Source: Bdellovibrio sp. SKB1291214 (GTDB lineage: Bacteria > Bdellovibrionota > Bdellovibrionia > Bdellovibrionales > Bdellovibrionaceae). From it: a stretch of 64,000 nucleotides of DNA. Below are positions 59,653-63,490 of this stretch, one piece after another. Within the stretch, counting starts at the first letter, position 1. The number at the start of each line of letters is the position of its first letter. The notes under the pieces were generated by a model. The model did no database searches, was not told the origin of the DNA, and saw only the letters and a list, made by a program, of their open reading frames with translations. Location of the stretch: assembly GCF_002209355.2 (NCBI RefSeq), contig NZ_CP106855.1, positions 1,736,001 through 1,800,000 on the forward strand, written 5' to 3'. The translations under genes and the position numbers were made by a program.

Positions 59653-60234
59653 TTGTTTAAGAATATACTCACATTATTATGCGCAAGCGTAGCGGGAATC
59701 TGTGTGGCACATGCCGCAGATTCTGTGGGTTTTTCCTCAGGCACCCAGTTCAAAGCAACTCCCATTGAAGGCCAAGTCGTAGTTACATGCGAAGGATTTA
59801 ATGGCGGGGGAGCAGCCACTTTCACATGTCGTGATGTCGTTTTAGATCCTGTTTCCTATGATTACTTTGTGGGCCCACGTGACGCTCGCGCCGTTCGCTA
59901 TGAACTTCGCAACGTTCGTGAAGACGGTTCCGTGCGTTCAAAAGACGACGATTACGACGGCTCCCGCGGACGCAGCGGTTCTGCCATCAACTTGTGGATT
60001 TCAACTCTGTTTCAAAAGCCGTTATTGGCAGCCGGAAAAAATAAAATCAGCTACGCCATCTACGGCCAAAACAACCGCGAACCTTTAAGTGAAGGCGAAG
60101 TAACGATCAACGTCGCTCGCAGCACATCTCGCACGTGTCCAACAACTCACTACAACTCAGCCGACGTAAACGACTGCAACAGCCAGTACTCTGTTTGTCA
60201 ACGCTACTTCCAACAATTCAACAACTGTAGATAA
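59653..60234 (+). CDS. Secreted six-Cys protein of unknown function
   Basis: This 193-residue protein has a signal peptide (through A-H-A), and mature Cys residues in V-T-C-E-G, F-T-C-R-D and four in the tail (R-T-C-P, D-C-N, S-V-C-Q, N-N-C-R). An Arg/Asp/Gly-rich middle follows. The start is TTG with GGAGGGG eight bases upstream. No family recognised. A REP-like hairpin lies 28 bases after the stop. Confidence 0.6.
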   Translation: MFKNILTLLCASVAGICVAHAADSVGFSSGTQFKATPIEGQVVVTCEGFNGGGAATFTCRDVVLDPVSYDYFVGPRDARAVRYELRNVREDGSVRSKDDDYDGSRGRSGSAINLWISTLFQKPLLAAGKNKISYAIYGQNNREPLSEGEVTINVARSTSRTCPTTHYNSADVNDCNSQYSVCQRYFQQFNNCR

Positions 60235-60262: not shown

Positions 60263-60283
60263 GGTACGGACACACTTTGTCCA
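60263..60283 (+). repeat. REP-like hairpin, copy A
   Basis: GGTAC followed by the hairpin GGACA-CACTT-TGTCC, then A. Identical to three other copies in the window, here in plus orientation, about 30 bases after the stop of the six-Cys protein. Confidence 0.85.
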
Positions 60284-60383
60284 TACGTCCTTTTGCTTAT
60301 CACCATGATTAGTACTGAAAACTAAAGAATGCTTTAGGGTAAGCGCTATTTCTTTTATCATTTTTCTCTCGGGGAGAATTGTT

Positions 60384-61397
60384 ATGAGAAAAGTATTTCT
60401 GCTTTCGCTACTTGTTTTATCTGCGTGTGCTTCTCAACCACCTAAGACTGAAGAGGCTTCGCAACCGGTTCCCTCGAAAGGATTCGATGCAGAGCTGACC
60501 AAGTTCGATTATCCATTTCCGGTTTCATTCTATTCATTCCGTGCGCAAAACCAAGATTTGAAAATGGCTTACATGGATGTGGCGCCTGATAAGGGTTCTG
60601 ACAAAGTGATCGTGCTTTTGCACGGTAAAAACTTTTCGGGTTACTATTTCGAAGACATGGCCAAGATTCTTGTTGGAAAAGGTTATCGCGTGATCATGAT
60701 TGATCAAATTGGTTTCGGTAAATCGACGAAGCCCGCCCTCTTTCAATACTCACTTCACGGGTTGGCGTCCTACGCAAAAATGCTCTTGGATAATTTGAAA
60801 ATCACTAAGTTCCAATTGGTGGGGCACTCAATGGGAGGCATGCTGGCCGCTCGATACGCATTGATGTATCCTGAAAACGTCACAAAGCTTTTCATGATTG
60901 ATCCGTTGGGCCTTGAGGATTGGAAAACTTTGACGACTTATAAAAGCGTTGATCAGCTTTACGATCAGGAGCTTTCAAACAATATAGATAAAGTTAAAAA
61001 GTATCAGCTTGAGTACTATTACGACGGCAAATGGAAACCAGAATACGACAAGTACTTGGTGCCTGCCCAAGGTTGGTTCGAAGGCCCAGACAGTCAGCGT
61101 TTAGCCTTCACATCGGCTCTGACATCCGAGGCGATCTTTACTCAGCCTGTGTACTATGAATTCAAGAATCTAAAAATGCCAACGGTGCTTGTGATCGGAA
61201 CCAAAGACAAAACAGCTATTGGTAAGGCCTGGGCCCCTGAAGAGAACAAAATGAAAATGGGCAACTACCCTAAGATGGCCAAAGACGTCATCAGCAAAAT
61301 CAAAAAAGGAAAGCTGATTCAACTCGAAGGAATGGGTCACACCCCGTTCATCGAAAACCCAGAAAAATTCTGGAAAGCCCTCACTCCACACCTCTAA
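60384..61397 (+). CDS. Alpha/beta-hydrolase lipoprotein
   Basis: This 337-residue protein has a classical lipoprotein signal L-S-A-C-A (cleavage before Cys15), a H-G-K-N-F oxyanion region, the nucleophile G-H-S-M-G-G and the catalytic His in G-M-G-H-T-P-F. It is probably an outer-membrane or periplasmic lipoprotein hydrolase of unknown substrate. GGGGAGA precedes the ATG and can pair with TTCTC just upstream. A REP copy begins two bases after its stop. Confidence 0.85.
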   Translation: MRKVFLLSLLVLSACASQPPKTEEASQPVPSKGFDAELTKFDYPFPVSFYSFRAQNQDLKMAYMDVAPDKGSDKVIVLLHGKNFSGYYFEDMAKILVGKGYRVIMIDQIGFGKSTKPALFQYSLHGLASYAKMLLDNLKITKFQLVGHSMGGMLAARYALMYPENVTKLFMIDPLGLEDWKTLTTYKSVDQLYDQELSNNIDKVKKYQLEYYYDGKWKPEYDKYLVPAQGWFEGPDSQRLAFTSALTSEAIFTQPVYYEFKNLKMPTVLVIGTKDKTAIGKAWAPEENKMKMGNYPKMAKDVISKIKKGKLIQLEGMGHTPFIENPEKFWKALTPHL

Positions 61398-61398
61398 A

Positions 61399-61419
61399 GG
61401 TACGGACACACTTTGTCCA
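61399..61419 (+). repeat. REP-like hairpin, copy B
   Basis: Same sequence as copy A, plus orientation, starting two bases after the hydrolase stop. It lies on the 3' side of the RAYT gene. Confidence 0.85.
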
Positions 61420-61449
61420 AAGAGCCGCCGGCCTGGCAAAGGTGGACGG

Positions 61450-62046
61450 CTACGTCCTTCTCAATCGTTCTGCAATTTTGAATTCTGTTCTTTTAAGGGC
61501 TCTATTGATCGCAAGATATCTTTCGGCTTCGAAGCTCATATTCAACCAGTCGAATCGATTCTCTGGCATCTCCGCGAACCATTCGTTCTCCTTTAGGAGA
61601 GCGATGCTTTTAGCTGTGAAGGTGGAGTAAGGATATTCCTCCGCCTTACTGCAGATGCCAGCCGTAATTGGATTTCTGATCACATATTTATAAATCAAAG
61701 AGAATTGCTGGGGATCTCGAATGAGTGAGCCTTTGTAAGGACCGCCGAAAACATGATTAATTCTTTGCGCCCGAGAGTTGATTATTTTGCTGGTCGTCTT
61801 TTGAAAGTAGTTCATCGCCTCGCCCAAATTCGCATTATCAGAGCATTGGCAAATCAGGTGATAGTGATTGTTCATCAAAACGAATGCATAAACACCAAGG
61901 CCATATTTATAAGTGGTGTCTTTAAGAGTATGACTAAAAATATCCCAACAGGTCGAGATGGGAAGATAAAACCAATCCTTATTATTTGATCTAGCCATCA
62001 CGTGATAGGGGTGTTCGTTCGTATAGAGTATTTTCTTTCTCGCCAT
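61450..62046 (-). CDS. REP-associated tyrosine transposase (RAYT, Y1 transposase)
   Basis: This 198-residue protein (from ATG 62046) has the HUH motif M-N-N-H-Y-H-L-I, where His-x-His binds metal, and the Y1 transposase pattern P-Y-H-V-M-A-R-S-N-N and a Y-K-Y-V-I-R-N-P catalytic-Tyr helix. Such single-gene proteins cut and move REP hairpins. Four REP-like copies surround it. The open frame extends 39 codons further upstream through REP copy C, with no Shine-Dalgarno, so 62046 is preferred. A small hairpin GGACG-GCTA-CGTCC overlaps the stop. Confidence 0.85.
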   Translation of the reverse strand: MARKKILYTNEHPYHVMARSNNKDWFYLPISTCWDIFSHTLKDTTYKYGLGVYAFVLMNNHYHLICQCSDNANLGEAMNYFQKTTSKIINSRAQRINHVFGGPYKGSLIRDPQQFSLIYKYVIRNPITAGICSKAEEYPYSTFTAKSIALLKENEWFAEMPENRFDWLNMSFEAERYLAINRALKRTEFKIAERLRRT

Positions 62047-62101
62047 GATGGATTGTGCTGCGAGAGTTACGCCAGGAAGGTATTGAGTAAAACAGCGAGC
62101 T

Positions 62102-62122
62102 TGGACAAAGTGTGTCCGTACC
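62102..62122 (-). repeat. REP-like hairpin, copy C
   Basis: Same sequence as copy A in minus orientation, about 55 bases upstream of the RAYT start. Confidence 0.85.
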
Positions 62123-62124
62123 AC

Positions 62125-62153
62125 GAAAAAAGGCCCCCTTGCGGGAGCCTTTT
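62125..62153 (-). terminator. Intrinsic terminator of trigger factor gene
   Basis: On the minus strand AAAAGGCTCCC pairs with GGGGGCCTTTT (one G-T pair) around GCAA and ends in TTTTTT. It lies between REP copies C and D. Confidence 0.8.
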
Positions 62154-62156
62154 GAA

Positions 62157-62177
62157 TGGACAAAGTGTGTCCGTACC
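62157..62177 (-). repeat. REP-like hairpin, copy D
   Basis: Same sequence as copy A in minus orientation, touching the last base of the trigger-factor stop codon. The REP has entered between the stop and its terminator. Confidence 0.85.
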
Positions 62178-63490
62178 TAGTTTTGTTCGTCTTTGAATGT
62201 GCCGGCTGGAACTTCTTTTACTTTGATTGTTTTGTTCAAGAAGTTGATCACTTTTTCTTCAGTGATTTGGTAGCTCAAGCGGCTTGCTTGGTCAGGACGG
62301 CCATAGAATTCTTTGATACGAGAAACTTCGATACCAGTTTGTTTTGCGTATTCTTCGAATTTCGCATCAACGTCTTCTTTTTTCGCGAATAGATCATGTT
62401 TTTTCGCAATAGCATCAACCAAGAAAGATGATTGGATCATCTCAGTCGCTGTTGCTGTGAAATCTGCATCCCATTTTTGAACGTAAGAACCGAAGTCAGC
62501 TTCGCCCATGCCTTGATCAGCCATGCGCTTTTTGAAGTCTTCAACCAATGAAGCTTTTTGCTCTTTCAACAAAGAAGGAGGAACTTCAACTGGATTTTCT
62601 TTAACCAAAGTTTTCAAAGTGCGGTTTTTGAAGCCGTCTTCGATACGTTTTTTATCATTTGCTTCAAGGTCTTCTTGGATTGTTTTTTTCAAATCAGCCA
62701 AAGACTCAGGTCCACCCAAAGTTTTGATGAACTCATCGTTCAACTCAGGCAATACTTTTGCTTTGATTTCTTTCAAAGTAACTTTGAATTCAACTGCTTT
62801 ACCAGCAAGCTCTGCAGAGTGGTATGGATCTGGGAATTTCAAAGACAAAGTTTTAGTTTCGCCTTTTTTCATTCCTACAACGCCTTCTTCGAAACCTTCG
62901 ATGAATTGTTTTGCGCCTAATTCAAGGTTGTGATCAGTGCCAGCGCCGTTTTCAAGTGGCTTACCATCAACGAAACCTTCGAAATCAAGAACTGCAGTGT
63001 CACCGTTTTTAGCAGTGCGATCTTCAGTTACAGTTTCGAAAGTTGCGCGAGATGAACGGATGTTGTTCAACACATCGTCAACTTTTTTAGCGTCGAAAGT
63101 GAAAGCTTCTTTTTCAACTTCCAAACCTTCGTATTTTTTCAAGTTGATCTCTGGGCGCACGTCAAATGCTGCAGAGAAAGAGAAGTCTTTGTTTTCAGAT
63201 GGATCAGCGAATTCGAACTCAGGGTAGCTGATTGGTTCCAATTTGTGCTCTTCCAAAGCTTGCGCGTAGTGTTTTTGAACTAGGTCTTGAACTACGTCTT
63301 GCTTAACACGGTCGCCGTACATTGATTTGATTGTGTTCAAAGGAGCTTTACCTTTACGGAAGCCTTTGATTTCTACGTCTTTTTGGATGCTTGTGAACAC
63401 TCTGTTGAAAGATTGAGCTACAACTGCAGCTGGGATTTCGATGTTCATCTTTCTTGAAAGGTTAGAAACCTTTTCTACATTTGATTTCAT
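62177..63490 (-). CDS. tig: Trigger factor
   Basis: This 437-residue ribosome-associated chaperone and prolyl isomerase has the ribosome-binding loop region G-F-R-K-G-K-A-P (family signature G-F-R-x-G-K-x-P) near residue 45, a FKBP-type middle domain (G-D-T-A-V-L-D-F-E-G) and a helical C-terminal cradle. ATG 63490 is chosen because AGGAG lies 8 bases upstream; a longer frame exists. Usually followed by clpP/clpX, but here the downstream side is the REP/RAYT region. Confidence 0.94.
   Translation of the reverse strand: MKSNVEKVSNLSRKMNIEIPAAVVAQSFNRVFTSIQKDVEIKGFRKGKAPLNTIKSMYGDRVKQDVVQDLVQKHYAQALEEHKLEPISYPEFEFADPSENKDFSFSAAFDVRPEINLKKYEGLEVEKEAFTFDAKKVDDVLNNIRSSRATFETVTEDRTAKNGDTAVLDFEGFVDGKPLENGAGTDHNLELGAKQFIEGFEEGVVGMKKGETKTLSLKFPDPYHSAELAGKAVEFKVTLKEIKAKVLPELNDEFIKTLGGPESLADLKKTIQEDLEANDKKRIEDGFKNRTLKTLVKENPVEVPPSLLKEQKASLVEDFKKRMADQGMGEADFGSYVQKWDADFTATATEMIQSSFLVDAIAKKHDLFAKKEDVDAKFEEYAKQTGIEVSRIKEFYGRPDQASRLSYQITEEKVINFLNKTIKVKEVPAGTFKDEQN

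Follow-up and report, generated by a model that had tools for sequence, protein, structure and literature searches.

A terminal-inverted-repeat-associated Y1 transposase gene and its dispersed repeat family in Bdellovibrio

We report here that a Y1 (HuH) tyrosine transposase gene next to the trigger-factor gene (tig) of Bdellovibrio sp. SKB1291214 is a terminal inverted repeat (TIR)-associated transposase with a dispersed repeat family, in place of the REP-hairpin system of the original prediction. This extends transposase-linked dispersed repeats to the Bdellovibrionota, and shows that such repeats need not have a GTAG tag or a unit hairpin. The evidence observed directly comprises the homology, fold and catalytic residues of the protein, its cognate repeats and their copy numbers, their placement at stop codons, the terminator-like doublets and the variants at orthologous sites. 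A literature search with the terms tried found no published description of Bdellovibrio repeats. The 64-kb stretch analysed is referred to as the window; G000 denotes the genome under study and other G numbers its relatives, the genus set having 24 members. Genome-wide statistics were built on pattern searches and fetched stretches.

Pattern search found four exact copies of the 20-mer GGTACGGACACACTTTGTCC in the window, two plus and two minus, as had been predicted, where the chance expectation for the 15-mer with up to two mismatches is 0.18. The predicted plus-strand starts were right, whereas the minus-strand starts were off by one (62103 and 62158, not 62102 and 62157). Copies B (61399-61418, plus) and C (62103-62122, minus) are the element's 3' and 5' TIRs, respectively, and indeed enclose, in inverted orientation, the Y1 gene on the minus strand (61450-62046; start ATG at 62046). 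The element lies between two host genes, an alpha/beta hydrolase gene (60384-61397, plus), whose stop comes one base before copy B (ORF end 61397), and tig (62177-63490, minus). The remaining copies are solo repeats. Copy A (60263-60282, plus) sits 28 nt past the stop of ORF 59653-60234. Copy D (62158-62177, minus) fills the spacer between the tig stop and its terminator, and the predicted contact with the stop is real, the first G of the repeat being the third base of the TAG. The native intrinsic terminator of tig (62123-62157), found also in G013 and G020, lies between D and C, with C just beyond its T-run. The whole genome (3.68 Mb) has eight copies that match exactly and 22 when up to three mismatches are allowed, against none for the reversed pattern; the repeat is thus present elsewhere, a count the original prediction had called for. 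With up to two mismatches this family (family 1) has 18, 18, 48 and 4 copies in four genomes (G000 18, G013 18, G015 48), and it was found in only 4 of the 24 genus members.

The protein of 198 aa is a genuine TnpA-REP relative. It matches Pfam PF01797 (Y1_Tnp; E 2.2e-7), and a profile of 24 congeneric homologues matches E. coli TnpA-REP (PDB 4er8; E 3.7e-12), with the two catalytic Tyr residues aligned. Foldseek with the AF2 model (pLDDT 92.4) also placed 4er8 first (TM 0.64/0.76), followed by the ISDra2 and IS608 transposases. The HuH motif is N60-H61-Y62-H63 and the catalytic Tyr is Y121 within KYVIRNP; H61, H63, Y121, N125 and P126 do not vary in either of two alignments, of 24 and 32 sequences. 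The call of a RAYT-like Y1 transposase gene therefore holds. The score against the NCBIfam RAYT model (NF047646, REP_Tyr_transpos) was 60.2 bits, under the cut-off of 80, so that this model was not passed, which counts against the element reading that we favour. A Pfam scan at E 0.001 found only Y1_Tnp and no C-terminal HTH/DnaA-like extension. Outside the genus, most of the nearest named relatives belong to the Bdellovibrionaceae or to other Bdellovibrionales. The earlier remark that placed RAYTs mostly in gammaproteobacteria no longer holds, as they are listed in many phyla (PMC6006769).

The gene is single-copy and bears no sign of recent movement of its own. G000 has six Y1 genes, the closest paralogues found being 41% and 34% identical to the tig-linked one; because the six are divergent, an IS200-type insertion sequence was rejected. 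A defence or phage gene was likewise rejected, the protein having no PADLOC or PHROGs match, as were plasmid relatives, every match being below 60% identity and, among the matches listed, below 32%. An orthologue with the identical four-copy layout is present in G015. The gene stands directly beside tig in G015 and G016 and about 1 kb from tig sequence in G023 and G008. In G008, the match to trigger factor is split between two places (G008:C1:1271078-1272043 and 963871-964335; L103 and L104), the C-terminal piece lying near the transposase; this may be a rearrangement, an assembly fault or a split gene.

Of the homologous Y1 genes examined, almost all of those in the genus and the majority of those in the phylum carry their own inverted repeat at both ends; in the phylum comparison, shuffled-flank controls score 11 or less. 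When the repeats of 48 homologous elements were aligned on their GG head, GGT and T at positions 14-17 proved common and the core (positions 4-12) variable. Repeat distance follows protein distance (Mantel r 0.65, p 0.0001, 23 pairs), a correlation that may equally stem from shared descent. The GGGGWSAS motif is absent from these TIRs, which have GGT...TTTT instead, and the GGGGTCAGG type occurs only in other phyla. A second TIR-associated Y1 gene (G000:C1:2459780-2460358; L079/L308) carries GGTAACAGTTCCCTTTT, of which G000 holds 39 dispersed copies (family 2; reversed control 0). This repeat often furnishes the TAA stop of the upstream gene. A third repeat, AAAAGGTACGTCCTTACC, has 27 copies with at most one mismatch in G000:C1 (for example L274-L288), several as inverted pairs; it looks orphaned, because none of the six Y1 genes of the genome was seen carrying it. 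The Y1 genes at L025 (G000:C1:1136423-1139686) and L024 belong to another subtype (NDHVH/TDHIH) and are flanked by GGTATCGGTCAT and GGTACCGGTCA repeats, with several copies of GGTATCGGTCAT in the locus.

A bias of the repeats to 3' ends, raised in the original prediction, turned out to be strong. We counted a copy as abutting a stop codon when its GGT edge lay between -6 and +2 relative to the stop of an ORF of 100 codons or more, and computed the expectation from A-preceded positions within 250 nt. Across four genomes, 32 of 88 family 1 copies abut a stop codon against 1.4 expected, and for family 2 the figure is 20 of 36 against 0.8. The family 1 peak, with 17 copies, is TAA-AA immediately before the edge of GGTAC; family 2 has two peaks of 7 copies each, one where GGTAA within the repeat itself provides the stop and one where a TA before the edge is completed to TAG. 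The GGT head is preceded by [CT]A+ in 68/88 family 1 and 30/36 family 2 copies. GTAG REPs too sit near 3' ends and supply TAG stops (PMC3733652), so the tendency is common to both; the peak here is sharp.

Comparison of orthologous sites revealed turnover. At the tig site, G013 and G020 are without the transposase and copies C and D and keep the same terminator; D takes the place of a spacer of about equal length, and in G020 one short repeat-like scar joins the tig terminator to the hydrolase. Site L007 is empty in G013, G020 and G012, and holds a GGTACGGACACACTTTGTCC family repeat in G000, a repeat of a different transposase family in G015 and a third, degenerate repeat in G016; again, a stop-to-terminator spacer has been replaced by the repeat at about equal length. 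Another repeat family occupies site L001 in G015 and G013. The orthologous copies A-D, L002/L105, L008/L124 and L012/L118 read GTCC in G000 and CTCC in G015, L018/L112 being the exception with CTCC in both. Such lineage-specific variants and different TIR families at orthologous sites imply either overwriting in place or recurrent insertion. A clean insertion junction with one intact target was not found; filled and empty sites differ by the replacement of a spacer that evolves fast, and since the repeat replaces a spacer of about equal length at both tig and L007, simple transposition is not demonstrated. One tentative idea, which we think has a minority chance of being right, is that the repeats target or overwrite the stop-to-terminator interval, with spacers or entire terminators replaced by transposase-specific inverted arms and sites re-occupied by successive families as transposases change. 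If so, a selfish element would keep rebuilding the 3' ends of host genes. What merits pursuit is the niche at stop codons together with the turnover of sites.

Repeats also occur in inverted doublets, which account for 28 of 48 copies in G015, 10 of 18 in G013 and 2 of 18 in G000 family 1, and which are common in G000 family 2. The doublets that were folded reached -45 to -77 kcal/mol, commonly in the form AAAA-stem-TTTT, and those of relatives fold into 20-40-bp stems, often around the gene's own terminator. A single 20-mer was rejected as a stand-alone terminator, being without a consistent T-run and followed by the native terminator. A serious rival account has doublets arise locally, with no need of a transposase: during replication, template switching at a terminator hairpin (quasipalindrome correction) would copy a solo repeat to the other arm. 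Such switching creates and mends hairpins (PMC8794818), and the inner sequences of doublets are mostly native, site-unique terminators. The L119 doublet encloses a native terminator that G013 has without family 1 arms, and the L122 doublet occupies the position where G013 has a terminator. Matching arms point the same way, with the same variant in both arms of L122 (the rare ATCC) and of the G013 orthologue of L106 (CTGAC). However, the arms are discordant in L109, L115, L134, L137 and L141, the related inner loops of L112 and L122 at unrelated sites suggest copying of units, and template switching leaves genome-wide dispersal unexplained; we therefore hold it possible but rather doubtful. The orthologous doublet L106 (G015)/L154 (G013) has undergone the same change in both arms (core ACACA versus CTGAC), which may be a trace of template switching or of unit replacement. 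At L116 (G015:C1:2004700-2007900, ~1492-1666), G015 differs from G013 (L137) by a tandem duplication of a stretch made up of a terminator half and a repeat. A 738-bp pair in G015 (L117) was ruled out, as it flanks an unrelated gene and no transposase.

Two further readings concern the repeat itself. Were the system a canonical RAYT/REP pair, the enzyme would read each 20-mer as a REP, by its hairpin and by its 5' tetranucleotide (here GTAC). A 5-bp hairpin, GGACA/TGTCC, is indeed present in the G000 version of family 1 (-4.8 kcal/mol as RNA), the related repeats of L185, L186 and G023 are also able to pair GACAC/GTGTC, and the structural relative 4er8 binds a REP hairpin. However, nearly all of the 48 copies in G015 are GGTACGGACACACTTTCTCC, in which this pairing is broken; the family 2 repeat has no unit hairpin; and only 5 of the 48 element repeats fold better than 95% of shuffles. 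The tetranucleotide at the repeat foot is GTAC here, not GT[AG]G, and beyond GGT it is not conserved across the 48 elements, and a GTAG to GTAC change abolished cleavage in Stenotrophomonas (PMC8266576). Since only GGT and the T-run are conserved, the hairpin is lost in G015 and so few repeats beat their shuffles, the family falls outside the classical GT[AG]G REPs, and we consider the canonical reading unlikely. Of the original prediction, the dispersed inverted repeats flanking the gene stand; the unit as a REP hairpin with a GTAC tag does not. Still less probable, in our judgement, is that selection maintains the repeats as elements of host 3' ends (for mRNA protection, for termination or as regulator sites), among which the transposase merely settled. 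Their strong 3'-end placement, the terminator-like doublets and the persistence of repeats in G013, which is without the tig-linked gene, would suit such a role, but the restriction to 4 of 24 genus members, the different repeat families at the same orthologous sites and the matching repeat of each Y1 gene argue against it.

We therefore favour, as the probable explanation, a TIRtron-like element whose protein reads its own repeat and moves or copies units to stop-codon sites, with doublets that resemble terminators. In this view, inverted repeats of ~20 bp, each with a GGT head, a variable core and a T-run, bound the gene for a Y1/HuH single-strand DNA transposase, and the solo and paired copies form a moderately abundant non-autonomous family. 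The protein most likely recognises its repeat on single-stranded DNA, probably that of the lagging strand, and may cut at the GGT edge beside a pyrimidine-A(n) sequence and then move or copy repeat units to matching sites; by analogy with Y1 biochemistry (PMC8266576), it would cleave a single strand at the edge of the repeat and carry out strand transfer. Sites of the type YA(n) are plentiful at TAA/TAG stops and the repeat itself provides or keeps the stop, so that copies would gather flush with stop codons, beside which, as beside terminators, they would be harmless. An inverted pair yields a long hairpin with an A-tract and a T-tract, a bidirectional terminator-like structure that may act in termination. 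Standing against this explanation are the lack of a clean insertion with an intact target, the single-copy RAYT, and the 18 copies that G013 retains although it is without the tig-linked gene.

These genomes offer a compact comparative system, with 24 congeneric members, at least two cognate enzyme/repeat pairs in G000 and filled, empty and switched orthologous sites, in which it can be tested directly whether REP-like repeats spread by insertion, by conversion or by template switching. The type is already known as the TIRYT/TIRtron class of selfish DNA (Di Nocera et al. 2013, PMC3733652), and this class suits the locus better than the GT[AG]G REPs. As in that work, a RAYT-like Y1 gene has TIRs unrelated to GTAG REPs, and a moderately abundant dispersed TIR family occurs as singles and dimers. 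GGGGWSAS is the consensus in the TIRs of many, not all, members, whereas the head here is (A)GGT...TTTT, GGGGWSAS appearing only in relatives outside the Bdellovibrionota; our protein is also short, with no C-terminal HTH found by Pfam, and lineage-specific variants at orthologous stop-codon sites are not described in the parts of that work considered. TnpAY1 subclass 2.1 (PMC6006769) differs in the C-terminal HTH/DnaA-like extension that our protein is without; no REP-like sequences near subclass 2.1 genes were reported, and further TIRYT analysis was called for, to which the present system supplies cases. With RAYT/REP and REPIN systems (Nunvar 2010, PMC2817692; Bertels and Rainey 2011, PMC3116915) it shares the Y1 HuH type of enzyme, inverted repeats at the gene's flanks, dispersed extragenic copies close to gene 3' ends and, in some genomes and families, inverted doublets, but not the GT[AG]G tag or a conserved unit hairpin, and copies here number below 100, those of G000 family 1 being mostly singlets. 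The E. coli TnpA-REP structure 4er8 is the best match in both sequence profile and fold, although identity over the structural alignment is 14% and 4er8 recognises GTAG and a bulged hairpin. IS200/IS605 insertion sequences belong to the same Y1 enzyme superfamily, but here a single-copy gene is accompanied by divergent paralogues, with no near-identical copies of the whole element.
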